Positions 9,759 to 59,939 of a stretch of DNA of 64,000 bases are shown piece by piece; positions within the stretch are counted from its first letter, which is position 1, and each line of letters starts with the position of its first letter. The notes beneath the pieces are model-generated. The model ran no database searches. It was not told the DNA's origin and saw nothing but the letters and a program-made list of their open reading frames with translations. The translations under genes were made by a program, and so were the position numbers. The stretch is from an uncultured Verrucomicrobiae bacterium (GTDB lineage Bacteria > Verrucomicrobiota > Verrucomicrobiia > Limisphaerales > AAA164-E04), in NCBI GenBank assembly GCA_951813855.1, contig OX638380.1, positions 3,674,876 to 3,738,875 on the forward strand. The letters are read 5' to 3'.

Positions 9759-11272
9759 CTAACGGTATCTTCGTCCCGCCGGTTTTTCCGGTTCGGGAAT
9801 AGGCTGATGAGGTTTTCGGACGCGGTCGATACGCTCGCTCATTCGTCTGACCAGACTGGGGTAGCTGGCGGCCAGGTCGGTAGTTTCTCCCGGATCGGTA
9901 GCCAAATTATAAAGCTCCCAAGCTTGGTCGGATGCGTGGCGAAGTAACTTCATATCGCCCATCCGAATGGCTTGCATCAATCCGGTGTACTGCTGAGTCC
10001 GCCAATTGTATCGAGGCCATTCCCAATAGAGTTCGGGATGCCGTTTTTGCAATCCCCGGTTCAACAGGGTAGGGAGGACGGAAATACCGTCGATGCCTTC
10101 GGGAAGGCTGTCGGATGCGTTGGCCAGATCCAAACAAGTCGGGAGAAAATCCGGAAAATACCAAGGCAAATCGCTTCGTCGGCCAGGAGCGATGCGGCCG
10201 GGCCAACGCACCAGCATCGGCGTTCGCAATCCGCCTTCGTACATGGATCTCTTGCGGCCCTTGAGGATACCGCTGGAATTCAGTTCGCCGTCGAGCCGTT
10301 CGGCCGCCCCGTGGTCGGAGCAAAAGAACACGATCGTTTGTTCGGCGATGCCCAATTCGTCCAGCAAATCCAATAGGGCGCCGACTTGCCGGTCGACCTG
10401 CGAAACCATTGCCGCAATGACCTTCGCTTTGATCGACCAAGGGCGCGAAGCGTACTCCTCGGTCGCGGGATCATCGGCCGGAAATTCGTAACGTCCGTGC
10501 GGCGGGGTCCAAGGCACGTAGCAGAAGAAGGGACCGTCCTGATGGCAGGAGCGGATAAAATCCAGCGTTTCCTCGAAAATCAGGTTTTGGGAATATTGTC
10601 TGACCTTGCCGGTGTCCGGATCGGTCGACGGAAAAAATCCCGCTTGGGGCTGGTCGTCGTAAAAGCCTTCGTTGCCGGGCAACGCGATTTTTTGCCGTTG
10701 CGCACCAGATAATCGGGATAGAAGTAATGAGCATGGATTTGATGGTAGTATCCGAAAAACAGGTCGAATCCCTGCTTCTCGGGTGCGCCCTCGGTATCGA
10801 TATCGCCCAGTCCCCATTTGCCGAAACCTCCGGTAGCGTAATCGGCTTGCTTTAAAAGTTCGGCGACCGTCACTTCTTCCGAAGGCAAGGGAATCCCGCC
10901 GGTGTTGCCCCGCACTGCTGCGTGGCCCATGTGTTTACCGGTCATCAGAGTCGCTCGTGCGGGAGCGCAGACCGTGCATCCGGAATAACATTGGGTAAAC
11001 GAAAAGCCTTCGGTGGCCAACCGGTCGATATTGGGAGTCTGGATCGTCTTGCTGCCGAAACTGCTCAAGTCGGCGTAACCCAAGTCATCGACCATGATGA
11101 AAATGATATTGGGCCGCTCCGCTTCAGGTTCGTCTGCCGGACAGAATGGTGCCGCGCTCAGCACGAAGAGCAGGGCGAGCAGCCGGCGAATAGGCGAAGG
11201 GGCGGACGCCTTCGGATTCCTTGCGGTCACGACGGAGTCTCGCGAGGGGTCGAAAGTGAGTTCGTGATTCAT
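9759..11272 (-). pseudogene. Sulfatase, reading frame broken by an apparent 1-base frameshift
   Basis: The N-terminal part (from 11272) has a signal peptide (LLALLFVLSAAPFCPA), the metal-binding start PNIIFIMVDDLGYAD, and the signature C-x-P-x-R (VCAPARATLMTGK) in which Cys is converted to formylglycine. The C-terminal part (to 9759) carries the rest of the fold, including FFCSDHGAAE and LRTPMLVRWPG. The two frames meet at a run of six T on the plus strand (10688-10693; A6 in the gene). One more A would read GKKIALPGNEGFYDDQP through. This may be a real frameshift, a homopolymer sequencing error, or slippage that still yields some full-length enzyme. It lies 57 bases downstream of the inositol oxygenase on the same strand. 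Confidence 0.85.
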
Positions 11273-11329
11273 GACGTAGTTGACCGACTACTGTCGGTCG
11301 GCAGTTGAATGCGGTAAAGATCAAACGAG

Positions 11330-12631: not shown

Positions 12632-14755
12632 ATGAGTGTCGAATATTCCATGAGAATTTCCCGGCTTACCATCGATAAGTTGGGGGTGAAATTATACGAT
12701 AAGGTGTCGGCAGTAATCGCCGAACTCATCGCGAACGCCTACGATGCCGACGCGACAAGCGTGACCGTTCGCGCTCCGACGGGGAAGTATTTGGCGACCC
12801 GGAATGAAGGCAAGGTGTCGGACAAAGGATACGATATCGAGGTAACTGACGACGGGATCGGTATGACTCCTCAGCAGATTCAGAACTTCTTCCTTGTTGT
12901 CGGTGCCGAGCGACGTATCGATAACGAAAGAGGCGATCGTTCTTCTCGATACCACCGTAAAGTTATGGGCCGTAAAGGCGTGGGTAAACTCGCGCCATTT
13001 GGTATTTGCAAGTCAATCGAAGTGATTAGCGCCGGCGGAGAATACCTAAACGGCACCGGGAAAGATCCCGAAATGAAGGGTTACCTCACCTCTCATATCG
13101 TTCTTGATTACGAAGGGATCATGGCACTCGGTGACGAACCGGACGAACGATACCGGCCGGCGGTTGGCAAATTAAATGAATCGTATTCCCTGGAGCCGGG
13201 AACTCGGGTCATACTAAAGAATTTTAATTGTCGGAAAGTTCCCGATAGTAGAAGTATGGAACGTCAGCTGACTCGACGTTTTGGAATCAAGTCGGATAAT
13301 TGGCAGATTCAATTGCTGGACGGTACGAAAACAGATCCAGTGCCGGTGAGGGTTGGGCAATTCGAAGTTGAAACTATGCCGAATACCAGACTCACGTTCC
13401 AGTCGGACGGTACCGTAATAGGTCCCGACGGCAATGTTGATTCCAAGTGTAAGGCAGGATTTGATCAGGATGGCGAGTTTCGTTCGGTTACTGGTTGGAT
13501 GGCATATTCTAAAGTTCCGTATAAAGATGAACTCATGGCGGGTGTTAGGGTTTATTGTCGGGGTAAAATAGCGGCGCAAACGACTGTGTTTAATCAACGG
13601 GCCGGATTTACCGGAGAGCATAATATCCGTTCGTATCTAGTTGGCGAACTTCATGCCAACTGGCTTGACGAGAAGGAAGACTTAATTCAGACCGATCGAC
13701 GTGATATCCTTTGGTCCGAGGAAATCGCCGCTGTCTTCTAGGAATGAGGGCAAAAAAATGTCAAATATATTGGAACCTTGTCGCGGAATCCATTACGAAA
13801 AGCGACTCGGCAACTGTTTTTCGAGCTAGGTGACGTAAACAATCGAATTTCGGAAGAATTTCCGCGTGACGAGCAATCCGACATTCGTAAAAGAGCTACA
13901 GAGATTGCTCGATGCTTGGGGCAAACGATCAGTAGAGGTGAGCTCGAAGAGAAAGCCGTAGTGAGAGATTTAGTCGATTTGAGTATTACACTTGCTCCGC
14001 ACGTTAGCTTGAATTCGATGATGAAGAAAGCAGTCGAAAGCGCGGACTCACCGCTGAGCGTATTAACTTCGTTTTTACGTTTGGCGCGGTTGGCTGAGTT
14101 GTCGTCGTTTGGTAGGATCGCTGAAGATCGCCTTAAAGTGATCGACCGTCTTAATTGTCTTAAAGACGCTGAAGGTACCAACGAAAAAAGCCTTCAGCAA
14201 TTAATTACCGATGCCCCTTGGTTGATTAATCCCGAATGGGCACCAGTGACCGAAAATCAAACGTTTGCCAGCTTGCGTCGTGAGTTCGAGAAATATTACG
14301 AGAAAAAAACAGGTGATGTAGTTTTGTTAGCCGAGTTTCAAGAATCTGGCAAACGACCGGATTTTGTCCTGTTCAGTCAGGAAAATACGGTGCAGATAGT
14401 TGAGATAAAAAAACACCATCATCTATTGTCAGATTCTGAAATGGATCGAATTGTGAAATATCACAACATCATGAAATCTTTTCTTGAAGGCAATAAGCAT
14501 GAATCGTTTAAGAAGTGGTTCCAGGATTTTCACATAACGTTGATTTGCGACCGTCTCGAGTTGAACGGTATGTCACGTGCCGCTTTTGATGGGTATAAGC
14601 TAGCACGTAAGTTGACACATATGAGTTGGACTGATTTTTTATCCAAATCGAAACAAGCACACCAAGATTTCCTTGATGAGGCTAATCGACAACGTGAAGC
14701 TATATCGTGGAATGAGGCTGACGAATCCCCACGAATTTCTGCGCAAAACCCTTGA
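12632..14755 (+). pseudogene. GHKL-ATPase/PD-(D/E)xK restriction nuclease gene, interrupted by two nonsense codons and an IS
   Basis: The first part (ATG 12632) is a GHKL (MutL/Hsp90-like) ATPase: N-box with Glu31 and Asn35 (ELIANAYDADA), DDGIGM (73-78) and GRKGVGKLA (113-121). It ends at TAG (13739-13741), followed by GAA and TGA (13745-13747). The same frame then stays open and reads GQKNVKYIGTLSRNPLRKA, the continuation expected of this roughly 700-residue family; F-Q-E-W-G-Q would be restored by CAG and TGG codons. The distal part carries a PD-(D/E)xK nuclease site (RPDFVL...VQIVEIKK). The last 12 codons before 14755 come from the IS inserted at 14718. The family resembles BbrUII/HgiDII-type restriction enzymes as I recall them. 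Two separate polypeptides, the second from TTG 13778, cannot be excluded. Confidence 0.85.
14709..14741. repeat. Left boundary of IS10-like element: target duplication plus inverted repeat
   Basis: The 9-bp target duplication ggaatgagg (14709-14717) is followed by the left terminal repeat ctgacgaatccccacgaatt from 14718. The repeat pairs with the right end at 18 of the first 23 positions and resembles known IS10 ends (the GATCCCC core). Confidence 0.93.
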
Positions 14756-14768
14756 TTTTCAAGGGTTT
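14746..14768. terminator. Hairpin just inside the IS left end
   Basis: Arms aaacccttga and tcaagggttt (10 bp, perfect) enclose a TTT loop. It lies immediately inside the left end, where a terminator would shield the transposase gene from transcription entering from the host gene. No long T-tract follows. Confidence 0.55.
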
Positions 14769-14918
14769 CAGGAAAAAAGTGACCCAGTGCTTCCCACTGA
14801 CCAAGTGCCCTGGTTGCACGTGTCAATGCGGGTATCAACCCCTATTCGGGCAGTCATCATGCATGCATTGACATTGTTTCGTAACTGTTTCAGTGACGCA
14901 AGCCTGTGGTGCCCCAAA

Positions 14919-14949
14919 GCGTAAGTCGTTGATTACCAACGACTTACGC
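14919..14949. terminator. Perfect 13-bp hairpin upstream of the transposase
   Basis: Arms gcgtaagtcgttg (14919-14931) and caacgacttacgc (14937-14949) enclose a 5-base loop and are followed by aaaattttaaaaa. It is about 80 bases before the transposase start and could terminate read-through transcription or stabilise an RNA fold. Confidence 0.6.
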
Positions 14950-14968
14950 AAAATTTTAAAAAGCTTGA

Positions 14969-15025
14969 CTCTGATCAACAGTTCACATTCAATGTGCCGA
15001 ACCGGACATTGTCCTTTGATCAGAG
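14969..15025. promoter_or_regulatory. Long-range RNA hairpin just before the transposase start codon
   Basis: Arms ctctgatcaa (14969-14978) and ttgatcagag (15016-15025) are perfectly complementary. The right arm overlaps the region where a ribosome-binding site for the ATG at 15032 would lie. A smaller nested hairpin (cacatt/aatgtg) is in the loop. By analogy with IS10, transcripts starting outside the IS would fold and block translation, while a short internal transcript would not. Confidence 0.5.
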
Positions 15026-15031
15026 AAGATT

Positions 15032-16237
15032 ATGCATGTATTGACTGTGTTGACTATGTTGCGTTGCTGGATTGCCGATTACGCCATAATTGGCCACAAG
15101 GCTCGGGTCGAAGCTCTGCTAGCGGCAGTGATCGCGCTGCTCAAAGGCGACACCCTGACGCTGACAACGCTGGGGCGCAACCGAGACGGGTCGGCGCTAT
15201 CCAAGCACAAAATCAAGGCAATTGACCGACTACTCGGCAATTATCACCTGTACAAAGAACTGACGAGATTCTATACCGCCATGGCTGCGACATTGCTGAT
15301 GAATATCAGAAAACCAGTGATTCTCGTCGACTGGGCAGATACAGGGGTCACGACCAACAAAAAGTTGATGATACTCAGAGCAGCGGTACCTGTCAAAGGA
15401 CGGTCGATGGTCATCTACGAAGAAGTGCATCCTGAACGCAAATACAACAACGACAAAGTTCACAGAACGTTCATTCGGAGGCTTATGTCCTTGTTACCGA
15501 AAGGCTGCAAACCCATCGTGGTTACAGATGCAGGATACCGTGTGCCATGGTATCAAGACGTGTTGGATCATGGGGGACATTTCCTCGGACGTGTACGAGG
15601 CAAAGTCATGTATCAAGACCCGGAGACAAAGGACTGGAGCCTGATTTCAACGCTCTACGCCAAGGCCACAGCCCGCATTCGACATATCGGATCGACATGC
15701 TTGACAGTCACCAAATGCTTCAGCTGCAAACTGTATCTGGTGAGGGGCCAACAACGAAAGACCGGGAAGAAAAGAACTGCCAGGAACAAATCCAGGGATG
15801 CAAAATACCAGCTCAGTTACAAAACCCCATGGCTTCTAGCCACCTCATTGCCGCATGAACGAGGAACCGCAAAACTCATCAAGCGGATCTACTCACAGCG
15901 AATGCAGATCGAAGAAAATTTCCGGGATTTGAAGAGTCACCGCTTCGGTTTTGGGCTCCGCGATGCCTATACCAAGAGTCCTGAGCGTGGTGCCATCCTT
16001 CTCCTCATAGCTGCCGTTGCCACATTGGCGCTCTGGCTTCTGGGATTTGCTGGAACAACTCGTGGAATAGCAAGACATTTTCAAGCCAATACCATTCGAA
16101 ATCGAGCAGTTCTTTCCATAGTGTATCTGGGAAAAGAGGTGTGGAAAAATCAGAAGTTTATATTCACACTGGAAGAACTGAACCAAGCAATGGAACATCT
16201 GAAAAAACTGTTGTTTGAGGAGTCTCAATATGCTTGA
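15032..16237 (+). CDS. IS4-family (IS10-like) transposase
   Basis: The 401 residues match IS10 transposase along its length. Shared blocks include LTLTTLGRNRDGSALSKHKI, IDRLLGN, VILVDWADTG (first catalytic Asp), VVTDAGYRVPWYQ (second Asp), LGRVRGKVMYQD, and the Y-R-E-K signature YSQRMQIEENFRDLKS with the catalytic Glu. HFQANTIRNRAVLS near the C terminus is also IS10-like. All catalytic residues are present, so the enzyme is probably active. Hairpins upstream suggest control against read-through expression. Confidence 0.96.
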   Translation: MHVLTVLTMLRCWIADYAIIGHKARVEALLAAVIALLKGDTLTLTTLGRNRDGSALSKHKIKAIDRLLGNYHLYKELTRFYTAMAATLLMNIRKPVILVDWADTGVTTNKKLMILRAAVPVKGRSMVIYEEVHPERKYNNDKVHRTFIRRLMSLLPKGCKPIVVTDAGYRVPWYQDVLDHGGHFLGRVRGKVMYQDPETKDWSLISTLYAKATARIRHIGSTCLTVTKCFSCKLYLVRGQQRKTGKKRTARNKSRDAKYQLSYKTPWLLATSLPHERGTAKLIKRIYSQRMQIEENFRDLKSHRFGFGLRDAYTKSPERGAILLLIAAVATLALWLLGFAGTTRGIARHFQANTIRNRAVLSIVYLGKEVWKNQKFIFTLEELNQAMEHLKKLLFEESQYA

Positions 16238-16244
16238 AACCGTC

Positions 16245-16277
16245 AAAAAATTCGAGGGGATCCTTTAGGGAATGAGG
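16245..16277. repeat. Right boundary of IS10-like element: inverted repeat plus target duplication
   Basis: The right terminal repeat ends at 16268 (ttcgaggggatcctttag, 16251-16268). The second copy of the 9-bp duplication ggaatgagg follows at 16269-16277. Bases 16278-16297 then continue the interrupted nuclease gene as E-N-G-R-D-S-stop. Confidence 0.93.
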
Positions 16278-16293
16278 AGAACGGTCGAGACTC

Positions 16294-17384
16294 ATGACTC
16301 TGACGGCGATCGATGCTTTTTCTGGAGCTGGCGGGCTGACCGTCGGACTTAAACGAGCGGGTTTTCGCGTGGTCACGGCTGTTGAAGTCGAAACCCATTC
16401 CGTCGCCACCTACCGAGCAAATCATCCCGACGTTAGTTGTCTCGCCCGAGATATCACGACCGTTTCCGGAAAGGATTTATCTAATATTTTGGGAATTGAT
16501 CGGATTGATTTGCTAGCGGGTTGTCCTCCCTGTCAGGGGTTTACTAGTTTGACGATAAAGTATCACGGCAAGGATGATCCCCGCAACCGGCTTGTCCTTG
16601 AAATGGCTCGTTTGGCAGAAGAATTACGTCCGAAGGCGATCATGATGGAAAACGTTCCAGGGCTGGCCCGAAGAGGACGGTCTCTTTGCGCTGGCTTGCG
16701 TTCGCGACTTAGGGCTCTCGGGTATCGATTGACGGAAGGAGTCTTACAGGTTGCTAACTATGGCGTGCCACAGTTTCGAAGACGCTTGGTGTTGCTGGCT
16801 GGTCGAGGGTTCGAGATTCCTTTGCCCGGGGTTACTCGCTCCGGCACTAATACGGCCGGTTTGGCGTCGTGGAGAACGGTTCGCGAAACGATCGGAGGTC
16901 TGCCCGATCCCGTCACTTTGGCTAAAGCTAAAGCCACAGGGCCGATTGAACGGTCCGACTGGCACGTTGTGCGCGAATTATCGCCTGCGACTGTGGAACG
17001 GATGAAAGTTGTACGAGCAGGCGAGACTTGGAAAAGAATACCCGAACATCTTCGACCGGAATGTCATCGTGGCGGGTATGTTGGGTTCACCAATGTCTAC
17101 GGTAGTTGGAATGGGACCGTCCGTCGCCGACGATCACCGGTGGTTGCACCACTTTCAGCAAAGGCCGCTTCGGCCATCCCGAAGCCGACCGTACCATTTC
17201 GGTGCGCGAGGCGGCTTTGCTTCAGACTTTTCCCCGTGATTATTGCCTCAATACTCCCTACATCGGACATGCCTGCACCATGATCGGCAATGCCTTTCCG
17301 TGCGATTTCGCAGAAATCTTGTCACGACGGTGTCTCGAGGAAATTCATCGGCATACCGCAACAAGAACGAGCCGCTCCCGTTGA
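16294..17384 (+). pseudogene. C5-cytosine DNA methyltransferase, frameshifted near its C terminus
   Basis: From ATG 16294 the protein has motif I (DAFSGAGGLTVGL), catalytic motif IV (AGCPPCQGFTS), motif VI (MMENVPGL) and motif VIII (VPQFRRRLVLL). After GFTNVYG near 17100 the frame is lost. Motifs IX and X continue in another frame to 17384 (WDRPSPTITGGCTTFSKGRF, ISVREAALLQTFP, IGNAFP). One missing base at about 17105, in the codon before TTG GAA TGG, explains both frames. The protein read in the first frame alone ends at 17283 without motifs IX and X and is probably inactive. The ATG overlapped the original stop of the GHKL-nuclease gene, so the two were co-translated before the IS arrived. 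Confidence 0.88.
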
Positions 17385-21354: not shown

Positions 21355-23512
21355 TTGGCTCAACAAAGAAGCCGGAACAGGGTCGATTTTTTCTGGACAT
21401 TCAAAAGTTTCTCCGTTATTGGTTTCGCCATGGAATCAATTATTCCGGATGCCGCGGCTTTTTCGTTACGGGACGTAACGGTTCGACTTGTCCGTGGCGA
21501 AGAGGAAAGACTGCGCTGGGATTCGTTAATGTCGCAATACCATTATCTTCCGTTCCACAGCCTGTTTGGGAAGGCCTTGCGCCATGTCGCAATTTACAAC
21601 GAAACCTGGCTCGCCTTGTTGGGTTGGCAGGCCGGGGCCTTCAAGGTGGGAGTTCGCGACGAGTGGATCGGCTGGTCGGCCGAGCAGCAATTTTCCCGGC
21701 TGCATTTGATTGCGAACAACGCCCGCTTTTTGGTGCTGAAGGAGGGGCGGCTCCCCAACTTGGCCTCGCGGGCGCTCGGTTTGAGCCTGCGCCGTCTGGA
21801 AGCCGATATGCGCCGAGTGCACGGTTATCCGGTTTATTTGGCCGAAACATTCGTCGATCCTTCGAAGTTTGCCGGCACCTGTTATCAGGCCGCGAATTGG
21901 CAGTTCTTGGGTTTGACTCGAGGCTTTTCCCGAGTGCCGGGGAAGTCGGTGAGTTGGCTCCAGAACGGACAACCGAAGCAAGTTCTCGCCTATCCGTTAC
22001 GACCCGATGCCGCCACCATCCTCAGCCGCGAATCGGCGGCGGAAGACTGGCAGGCCGGGGATATGGCCCAGATCCCTTCGACCCCGGAACTGCACAGTCT
22101 CTATACGTTTCTGGAAAGCATCGACGACTTCCGCCAAGCTCGCGGGAAGCGTTACCGTCTAGCCTGCTTCCTGGCGATCGCGATTGCGGCTCGCTTAGCC
22201 GGGTATCGCGGCGTCACCGCTTTCGGTGAATTCGCCGCCAGAATGACTCAAGAGCAATTGAAGGCGGTCGGAGCCTTTTGGAGTCCCCGTCGGCAATGCT
22301 ACACGGCTCCGGCGGCCTCTACTTTTCATTACATCCTTGCTAAATTGGAGCCCGACACGCTGGATCGAACGATTGGTAAATGGGTCCGACAACAAAGCGA
22401 CAAGGAAACTCCAGTGGCCATTGACGGCAAGGATATCCGTGGGGCTTCAGCTCAATTAGAAAACGAAAACCGGATGATGGTGGCGGCAGTCGAGCATAGC
22501 ACCGGATTGGTTCTCGGTCAGACTCAAGTGCCCGATAAAACCAACGAAATTCCAGCGGTGCGCGAATTGTCTCGGAAACTTGATCTGGCAGGGCGCGTCG
22601 TGACTCTCGATGCCATGCATGTCCAACAGGAAACCGCCCGTAGCTTGCTGGAGGACTGTGCCGCCGACTACGTGACCAGTTCCGTCAAAAATAATCAACC
22701 GACCATCTATGAAGATTTGGAAGCCATTGATTGGAGTACCGCGGCGTGCTTCGATCAACCCGCCGAAAAGGGACACGGTCGCATCGAAAACCGCCGTTGT
22801 CTGGCCCTCGATATTTCCGGCTCCAAGTGGGATAATTATTGCCAGCTTTACGGTCGCCAACAGGCCATTCGCATCGAACGCGAACGTTACGTTCTGAAGA
22901 CGGACAAAACCAGCCATGAAGTCGTTTACTGCCTCACCTCCCTAAGTGCTGAAAAAGCCAGCCCGGAACAACTGCTCGCTCTCGTCCGTAACCATTGGCA
23001 CATCGAAAATCGTCTCCATTACGTGCGTGATTTCACCTATGACGAAGATCGATGTCGCGTGCGAGTTGGCCATTTACCTCGCAACTTGGCCTGCCTGTCC
23101 AACACCGCCATCTCGATCGTCAGGACCGAAAATCGCTTTGAGCATTTGCCGCCGTCCACTCGCCATTATGCTGCTCACCCCGAGGAAGCTCTCAATGCTA
23201 TCCTCAAACCTTTGACTCACTGAACGACCGGTACCGTTTTCGATCGGAATCGGGACCGCAACAGCTCCTGAGAAAAGGGGTGCGTCGGCTCTTCACGAAG
23301 GCATTGAGGTATCCACCCCCTCGCCGCCAAAACGACATCCCATAATTCGATAAGTCACCTCTGCGAGGATTGATCAACTTGGAATTGATCCCCAATGACG
23401 CAGTCGTGGTTTCGGGACGGAGCAATTCAATGTCGAGATTCTCGTCGCTAAGGTGTTTATCTGGAGTTTTCAAGGGCATTTTTCAGTTTATTTGGACTTT
23501 TGAATATTCCTG
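21336..23512 (+). mobile_element. ISAs1-type element 1 (2177 bp) with DUF4338-transposase fusion
   Basis: The element is bounded by 19-bp imperfect inverted repeats beginning CAGG and by perfect 10-bp duplications (21326-21335 and 23513-23522). It carries one gene (21430-23223) and about 290 bp of 3' non-coding DNA in which no further gene is evident. It lies in the signal-peptide region of the PQQ-like propeller gene. A second, different element of the same type begins 11 bases after its right end. Confidence 0.93.
21430..23223 (+). CDS. ISAs1-family transposase with N-terminal DUF4338 (DruA-like) domain
   Basis: From ATG 21430 the protein has 597 residues. The N-terminal 190 or so form a DUF4338 domain (RWDSLMSQYHYL, IGWSAEQQFSRLHLIANNARF, YLAETFVDPSKFAGTCYQAANW). 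The rest is an ISAs1 transposase with all three catalytic acidic residues: VAIDGKDIRGA, VVTLDAMHVQ and NHWHIENRLHYVRD. It is intact and probably active. DUF4338 is also the domain of DruA from the Druantia antiphage system, but no other Druantia gene is nearby, so a role in transposition is the simpler reading. It shares its architecture with the gene of element 2 but is clearly divergent. Confidence 0.93.
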   Translation: MESIIPDAAAFSLRDVTVRLVRGEEERLRWDSLMSQYHYLPFHSLFGKALRHVAIYNETWLALLGWQAGAFKVGVRDEWIGWSAEQQFSRLHLIANNARFLVLKEGRLPNLASRALGLSLRRLEADMRRVHGYPVYLAETFVDPSKFAGTCYQAANWQFLGLTRGFSRVPGKSVSWLQNGQPKQVLAYPLRPDAATILSRESAAEDWQAGDMAQIPSTPELHSLYTFLESIDDFRQARGKRYRLACFLAIAIAARLAGYRGVTAFGEFAARMTQEQLKAVGAFWSPRRQCYTAPAASTFHYILAKLEPDTLDRTIGKWVRQQSDKETPVAIDGKDIRGASAQLENENRMMVAAVEHSTGLVLGQTQVPDKTNEIPAVRELSRKLDLAGRVVTLDAMHVQQETARSLLEDCAADYVTSSVKNNQPTIYEDLEAIDWSTAACFDQPAEKGHGRIENRRCLALDISGSKWDNYCQLYGRQQAIRIERERYVLKTDKTSHEVVYCLTSLSAEKASPEQLLALVRNHWHIENRLHYVRDFTYDEDRCRVRVGHLPRNLACLSNTAISIVRTENRFEHLPPSTRHYAAHPEEALNAILKPLTH

Positions 23513-57533: not shown

Positions 57534-58952
57534 TTACAATCTAGAGTCGGGTGATAAAAATTCAAACTGTTTAACCGCCTCTAAGTATCCAATGTATTTG
57601 TTATGTTGATTCATGTAGATGTTTGCCTGCTTAATAATTAATTTGCATCGTTCACGCTCAACGCCTTCGGATTCAATCGTTTTATCATAATGCTTTTGTA
57701 AAGGAGTTCGTGTCGAACCTAAACAATTATGAATTTCTCTGCAGGCGACAATTGCCAGTGCTTCAAACAGAACAAATCCTTCACGCCTAGTAATTATATT
57801 CCTTTTTACCCCGACTTGATCAAAAATTTCATCAACTAGTATCTTGTCGTCGATTTCTCCATTTGAGAAGCGCTGATAGCAGTCGACGTCAACAGTGTGT
57901 AAAATTAGTGCGAGAGCAACACCACAAACGAAAAACTCATCGCCATACTCAATCATGGCCATCAATAGATCCAAATTTTTGAGAGCCTGAATAATTCGAC
58001 GAAAACTGATGTTTAGAGCTGAAAACAAGTCTAATAAAATTGGACTTAAATGTGTTCTTACCATGGCTGCTTCATTTTTTCCATTATTGGATCTACGATA
58101 GAGAAAACGACCTAATTCTGTAGAATCAATGTTATGTTGAATCAGTGTTTCGATGCATTCTGGAGTAGGTTTTGGAAGTTGCAACTCTCGATTGATGAAA
58201 CGGCGTAAATAGTCCTGGGAGTCAAAATTGTCACCGTAAATTGCACAAATCGATTTTTCAAGTTGGTTTTTATTTATGGCCAGTACAAATACCACATGCT
58301 CAACATTGAACAGATGCTTAGCTATTTCTAGAAACGTGATTGCATATGAGGGACGACAACGATCTAACTCATCAATCATTACGATAATTGGATGCCCATT
58401 CTGTTTTTGGGATGTTTCCGATGCAATTTCTCCTAATTGTTTTCGAAACTCATGAATTGATTTGTTTGCCTCTTCTTGGGCTTTAAAGTATTTTTCTGCT
58501 AAACCCGTGCCAGAGTCTAATAATTTGTTTATCACGGGTGGTAAAAACATTGAAATAGTACGTAATGCGAACACAGCAGTTTTCAACAATGTCTCGCGCT
58601 TTTGTTCGTCGATTATTTTTGATTTTAGCAATTGTTCTGTCAAAGAACTTGTGATTGCGTTTAATGGATTATTCATATGATCTGAATCCCAAACATTGAG
58701 ATCAGTTACTATGAAATCATTTAGTCTCAGATGAGCAGCCAACATTTTCATAAATGTTGTTTTGCCATCCCCCCATGTGGCATTGACCGAAATTACGCCT
58801 GGCCCCTGTACTATGCTTAACAATTTAGTATAGTTCTCGACAGTATCCTGACGGCCCAAAAGATCGTTTTTAAAGGGATTATCTTTTGGGACTTCAATTT
58901 CCGGACAGGAAAGAGCCACCTTGTGAATGTTTGATTTTTCTTGTTCATTCAT
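57534..58952 (-). CDS. KAP-family P-loop NTPase
   Basis: The 472-residue protein has a Walker A (SVNATWGDGKTTFM, about 56-67), a moderately hydrophobic segment between Walker A and B (about 124-145), and Walker B with the KAP form IIVMIDELDRCRP (about 189-201). The block following (FLEIAKHLFNVEHVVFVLAINKNQLEKSI, shown in part) and DYLRRFINRELQLP are also family traits. Some KAP NTPases, such as plasmid PifA, exclude phages; others have no known role. The gene is strongly AT-rich compared with its neighbours and stands alone, which points to horizontal acquisition. Confidence 0.9.
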   Translation of the reverse strand: MNEQEKSNIHKVALSCPEIEVPKDNPFKNDLLGRQDTVENYTKLLSIVQGPGVISVNATWGDGKTTFMKMLAAHLRLNDFIVTDLNVWDSDHMNNPLNAITSSLTEQLLKSKIIDEQKRETLLKTAVFALRTISMFLPPVINKLLDSGTGLAEKYFKAQEEANKSIHEFRKQLGEIASETSQKQNGHPIIVMIDELDRCRPSYAITFLEIAKHLFNVEHVVFVLAINKNQLEKSICAIYGDNFDSQDYLRRFINRELQLPKPTPECIETLIQHNIDSTELGRFLYRRSNNGKNEAAMVRTHLSPILLDLFSALNISFRRIIQALKNLDLLMAMIEYGDEFFVCGVALALILHTVDVDCYQRFSNGEIDDKILVDEIFDQVGVKRNIITRREGFVLFEALAIVACREIHNCLGSTRTPLQKHYDKTIESEGVERERCKLIIKQANIYMNQHNKYIGYLEAVKQFEFLSPDSRL

Positions 58953-59939
58953 GGTATGAATGCTTCCATTGATGTTGTGTTCATACGCATTCCGTTTTTC
59001 AGAGGCTTAAGGAGTATGTGACTGTTTGGAGAATGTTAAACACTTGATTGTAACTGCCTGCGCATTAAAATGCCTCTTTCGACGTCAACTGTTTTGCTGG
59101 ATTCGAAAATGAATTTGAATTGGTCAGTCCACAGTCATTCGAGATAGAGTCAGGATTCTCAACGGAATCTGACGAAGTTCGAATAATCTCCCAACTCCGA
59201 TTTCAGGTTGACCCAATCGCATCACACCTTGGAGAAGTTCTTCGAGAATTTTTCGCTGAATGAATTCAATTGGAGTCCTCGTGGCAAAACCGCGTCGTTT
59301 TCTGGCCGGATTCCGCCATACTCGATTTCTCCGGTTTCGCCACTGGTATCGTCCATTTACTCAAAATCGACGCGATACTACCGTACGTCATTGACGGGAG
59401 TCAAGCCTAAATTCGTACATTTCTGGAGGTGATCATTGGCCATTATCGGTCTATGGATAATCCATGAGTATGCCGCGTAGAACAGGCCCTGCTTTCGATG
59501 AATTGATTGTACAAATCATGGCTGACCTAAAGTCCTACGTTGAAAGGCGACGACGGAGGACTCTATCGGTCGAATTTGATTGTACGGGAGTAACTGGTCA
59601 CAAGTTTCCCCTCATTTAACGGGAATCGACCGATCGATCGTCGCACGAAAGTTTTGTCGGCCATCATCTGACCGGAGGCGAGGATCTGAAATACATTCTT
59701 TGGGTAGCGCTCTGTTATCGGATCAATGATCGTCGTTTTCGAATCGGGAACAGTATCCGCCAACCGATGTTGCTGTCTAACCGTCTTGACTATCGGCAAA
59801 CTCTCGGTTAAAAGCCGGGCAGGGAGGCCGAATAACTGTTTTCGGACGGTAGATTCGATTCGACCGACGAACGGGTGGGGGAACCGACAGTTATTTTGAA
59901 GAAGAACGGTAAGCGGAGCATCGGCAGTGACCAAGGAAC
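58953..59939. other. Long AT-rich region without a convincing gene
   Basis: Nearly 1 kb upstream of the KAP gene. Three short open frames were seen: 59208-59432 plus, 59467-59620 plus (MSMPRRTGPAFDELIVQIMA at its start) and 59563-59934 minus (from TTG, 123 codons). None shows a recognisable domain, and starts are weak. The region should hold the KAP promoter and may contain decayed genes from the acquired segment. Confidence 0.5.

Follow-up and report, generated by a model that had tools for sequence, protein, structure and literature searches.

The locus considered here lies within a stretch of 64,000 nucleotides (the window), and it raises a simple question: what was the pair of reading frames that now stands on either side of an insertion sequence (IS), and which of its lesions ended its function? 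We consider it very probably a Type II-like restriction-modification (R-M) pair that was acquired horizontally and inactivated recently, and for which no function is now expected. Its anatomy and lesions are directly visible, as is the intact layout in its relatives, where a single restriction (R) gene is followed by a methyltransferase (M) gene.

Anatomy of the interrupted pair

The features of the locus are as follows.

12632-14717, + strand: ATPase-nuclease (R) pseudogene, about 701 residues if read through
12707-13036, + strand: GHKL ATPase domain, with an S5-like region next to it (Pfam HATPase_c_3, E = 9e-16)
13739-13747, + strand: TAG and TGA nonsense codons, both in frame, separated by one codon (read from the sequence)
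14180-14640, + strand: PD-(D/E)xK nuclease domain, RPDFVL...VEIKK, kin to the Shedu SduA nuclease (Pfam SduA_C, E = 8e-4, which is below the Pfam cut-off)
14709-14717, + strand: left 9-bp target-site duplication, GGAATGAGG
14718-16268, + strand: IS4-family element of 1551 bp, transposase ORF 15032-16237 (NF033591)
16269-16277, + strand: right 9-bp target-site duplication, GGAATGAGG
16294-17283, + strand: C5-cytosine methyltransferase (M) pseudogene, first frame (PF00145, E = 1.5e-38; alignment with relatives L009 and L010)
17106-17384, + strand: remainder of M in another frame, comprising the end of the target-recognition region and motifs IX and X (PF00145)

The R frame starts at ATG 12632, meets two stops, TAG 13739-13741 and TGA 13745-13747, and apart from these runs on to 14755, inside the IS; at both stop positions, the alignment of intact relatives shows sense codons within an F-[QE]-x-W-G motif. 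The GHKL motifs (N-box ELIAN, DxGxG and GRKGxGK) occupy invariant alignment columns and are intact in R, and the D and ExK residues of the nuclease are likewise conserved, the catalytic motifs of both activities being still there. PADLOC reports SduA and REase_II matches on the gene, and a Foldseek search with a structure model of the relative L009 returned SduA with DNA, MutL, Hsp90 and MORC, with 8ps5 and 8ps4 among the matches; the model, with a mean pLDDT of 62, is a low-confidence one and serves as support for domain identity only.

The first-pass annotation had placed the IS at 14718-16268 between matching 9-mers, and the placement holds, with the refinement that R loses just about six residues at its C-terminus, a short IS-coded tail taking their place. 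The transposase scores 311 bits against NF033591 (cut-off 152) and, as in the IS4 family, a DDE transposase is accompanied by terminal inverted repeats and a target duplication. The genome holds six full-length and six partial copies of the element, that of the window counted, and the boundaries are real because four of the five other full-length copies carry 9-bp duplications at the same ends; the copy at 3,825,350 differs from ours at 5 of 1551 positions. As the insertion costs R only those few terminal residues, it did not destroy the nuclease: the two stops, not the IS, inactivated it. Reading directly from flank to flank with one copy of the duplication gives WNEENGRDS and a stop, the TGA at 16295 overlapping the ATG at 16294, exactly as had been described.

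The first frame of M keeps the catalytic PCQ and ENV motifs, and its homology stops at about 17104; the second frame, 17106-17384, corresponds to positions 269-322 of PF00145 (E = 1.7e-8). Both genes are thus damaged, as had been claimed, R by the double stop and M by a frame shift near 17105, with the IS between them.

A third copy of GGAATGAGG lies at 13741-13749, on top of the double stop and 968 bases ahead of the IS target copy; in the 64-kb window, the 9-mer occurs three times on the + strand and is absent from the opposite one. Imprecise excision of an IS was considered as its source and rejected, and we take the third copy as a coincidence because the junction letters of the IS leave the first stop unexplained.

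Intact relatives and family placement

A scan of genomes gave two relatives that match the read-through R protein over its full length, each as a single ORF, with about 61-62% (L009) and 57% (L010) identity, and a scan of viral contigs gave ten more with 51-56% identity; together they collapse to eight distinct systems (L009, L010, L032, L033, L036, L038, L040 and L041). In all eight, spanning 51-62% identity, an R of about 700 residues is one unbroken ORF, and a C5-methyltransferase of about 350-370 residues lies directly 3' of it, on the same strand, the two genes abutting or overlapping. Homologues with separate ATPase and nuclease halves were found nowhere among the eight. It is because these distinct relatives have an unbroken R directly before a C5-methyltransferase that we regard the locus as a former R-M pair, and a nuclease gene beside its cognate methyltransferase in eight of eight relatives is the layout of Type II systems. 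The earlier proposals that the ATPase and nuclease formed one polypeptide, and that R and M were a translationally coupled pair, are accordingly borne out, the former by single ORFs in the eight relatives and in further copies from Escherichia coli, the latter by the TGA/ATG overlap together with the abutting or overlapping genes of the relatives. A Vsr-like gene near the pair in four of the eight (L009, L032, L036 and L040) is consistent with 5mC modification; downstream of the window's own pair, a search for a Vsr remnant gave no convincing match.

In plasmid and phage collections, the relatives are all below 60% identity. Among 5,426 complete E. coli genomes, 21 carry a relative of the same clade at a DNA identity of 99-100% and, where its location was inspected (strain E118), it belongs to a lambdoid prophage adjoining ompW. 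As in the window's reconstructed order, the E118 pair (WP_021548141.1 and WP_024190764.1) has R first and then M, and there both are intact, overlap by 8 bases and stand between replication and antitermination genes.

The likeness to BbrUII/HgiDII enzymes suggested by the first-pass annotation stands as kinship and fails as membership. The two halves of R match successive parts of the NF050001 (BbrUII/HgiDII) profile, and the match is full length, with the same domain order and a C5-methyltransferase partner; the read-through protein, however, scores 226.5 bits (E = 5e-67) against a curated cut-off of 550, those intact clade members that were tested score 240-248, and the window's system has R ahead of M. 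In a maximum-likelihood tree, the window and the eight relatives form one clade with 100/100 support, apart from the proteins that pass the cut-off, which include three from the window's own genome, one of them truncated. Score and tree together rule out the name BbrUII/HgiDII and place the window in a sister clade of the curated family, not in the family itself. The recognition site of M.HgiDII, GTCGAC (PMC5867850), should not be assumed here either, because the target-recognition region of the clade's methylases is unlike that of HgiDII-like systems; with 33 occurrences of GTCGAC in the window against 38.5 expected, there is no clear avoidance, and we rejected a prediction of this specificity on both counts.

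As an architecture, the system appears to be of a kind already known. The paraMORC3 proteins consist of GHKL, S5 and a C-terminal restriction-endonuclease-fold domain with D-ExK, and C5-methyltransferase and Vsr genes are frequent in MORC and paraMORC operons (PMC2292703). The window's R has the same order, with an N-terminal GHKL ATPase (HATPase_c_3, N-box, DxGxG and GxKG motifs) and a C-terminal D-ExK nuclease whose motif is conserved and whose fold, in the model of L009, Foldseek matches to SduA, the difference being that the copy in the window is a pseudogene. The earlier assignment to MutL/MORC-like GHKL ATPases in an R-M setting thus agrees, at the level of architecture, with the paraMORC3 family described by Iyer, Abhiman and Aravind (PMC2292703), and on domain content we class R as paraMORC3 / GHKL-Shedu, a cousin of BbrUII/HgiDII. 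A functional guide is VcSduA, an anti-phage nuclease of the GHKL-Shedu kind (type I-D), which needs both the glutamate of its GHKL domain and the lysine of its nuclease to defend against phage (PMC12137116). It too combines a GHKL ATPase and a DUF4263-type PD-(D/E)xK nuclease within a single protein, but it is described as a stand-alone system and not as an R-M pair, whereas the window has a coupled methyltransferase.

The intact form would have been a single polypeptide of GHKL ATPase, S5-like region and C-terminal PD-(D/E)xK nuclease, presumably active in restriction and translationally coupled to a C5-methyltransferase that would mark the host's own sites. By analogy with VcSduA and MutL-type proteins, we infer that the enzyme was probably ATP-gated: binding and hydrolysis of ATP by dimerising GHKL domains would clamp it on unmethylated DNA and so license cleavage. 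For the clade as a whole, we can offer only a tentative suggestion, which may well prove wrong: it might constitute an uncharacterised family of ATP-dependent, single-polypeptide 5mC R-M systems with a site other than GTCGAC, carried by lambdoid and other prophages and by chromosomes, in which a MutL/MORC-like clamp licenses a Shedu-type nuclease.

Acquisition, decay and rival readings

The pair probably came by horizontal acquisition, as close relatives were absent from three same-genus and seven same-family genomes and GC across the R gene is 42-51%, compared with about 55-58% on either side. The myo-inositol oxygenase and pdxA genes that border the locus are on different contigs in the relatives, and hence there is no readable empty site; scans for promoters and terminators gave sites no more numerous than in shuffled sequence. 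The inactivation is recent: the window's R departs at 15 of 198 columns that are invariant in the eight intact relatives, each intact protein, scored in turn over a similar number of columns, departs at 0-25, and R is thus no more eroded than they are. Since separating or breaking M beside a live R should be harmful, R probably died before M, and it is reasonable to think that loss of the toxic nuclease freed the methyltransferase from selection. As the locus now stands, the stops part the nuclease from the ATPase, the IS splits the pair and M is frame-shifted. Counting against a dead pair, M might still function as two overlapping pieces.

The most serious rival to a recently inactivated pair is that the stops and the frame shift are errors of assembly or base calling and that only the IS, which is real, interrupts the genes; in that case R would be close to complete, its tail changed slightly where it runs into the IS, M would be intact and the system might still work. 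We think this unlikely, yet it keeps some weight because two stops within 9 bases are expected by chance, as independent events, in just 0.6% of cases (by enumeration) and because the adjacent sulfatase gene (9762-11287) is split into two frames at an A-run. Whether the split marks a pseudogene or an error of sequencing, it bears on how far small lesions in this region can be trusted; that the amino-acid divergence of R is not in excess also fits the error reading. On the other hand, the frame shift in M has no long homopolymer at it, the remaining genes of the window that were checked by Pfam are unsplit, and the IS is certain and parts the coupled genes regardless.

Considerably less probable is a domesticated remnant, in which the ATPase half (12632-13741) has been kept as a separate DNA-binding ATPase while the nuclease and methylase decay. 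All its ATPase motifs are indeed intact, and its ORF is open from the start to the TAG, but the D and ExK residues of the nuclease are just as intact, which gives no hint that one half has been selectively retained, and no relative in the clade has a standalone ATPase half. The least credible reading, that two genes encoded the ATPase and the nuclease from the outset, as happens in split systems, could appeal to an in-frame TTG at 13778, from which a nuclease ORF of 325 aa can be called, but it is contradicted by the uninterrupted gene of every relative, those of E. coli included, and by a frame that is continuous through the stops, with conserved residues there in the relatives.

Wider setting and neighbouring loci

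On the reading that we prefer, a recently inactivated R-M pair, the locus represents a known system type as an unremarkable fossil, caught early in its decay with all its lesions visible. Its main value is to direct attention to a clade whose intact copies occur in a tractable host, the copies in the 21 E. coli genomes being at least 99% mutually identical. With them, control of a restriction nuclease by a MutL/MORC-like ATPase becomes testable in laboratory E. coli, and such control bears on the possible role of the ancestors of eukaryotic MORC proteins.

The genome holds several related loci. At 1,840,853-1,845,002 (L080:6854-11003), tandem genes of the BbrUII/HgiDII family score 747 and 814 bits, above the cut-off; the C-terminus of the first is degraded, and nuoN and IS66-like genes adjoin. 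The tandem has no methyltransferase gene within about 6 kb and is read as a restriction-type enzyme with no methylase linked to it. At about 2.43 Mb (L060 / L081:8237-11318) lies an apparently intact pair of the same family, the methyltransferase preceding the ATPase-nuclease (672 bits), and at about 1.3435 Mb (L005:1377-1935) a short, broken remnant of a GHKL restriction ATPase has internal stops. A C5-methyltransferase gene overlaps that of a GHKL ATPase (an ORF of 316 aa) at about 3.067 Mb (L006:404-2436), possibly another MORC-like R-M system.

Elsewhere in the window, the ORF at 21355-23220 combines a DruA-like domain and a DDE transposase domain. A KAP-family NTPase gene at 57537-59006, with a GC3 of 0.34 and a GC content far below that of the rest of the window, was probably acquired.
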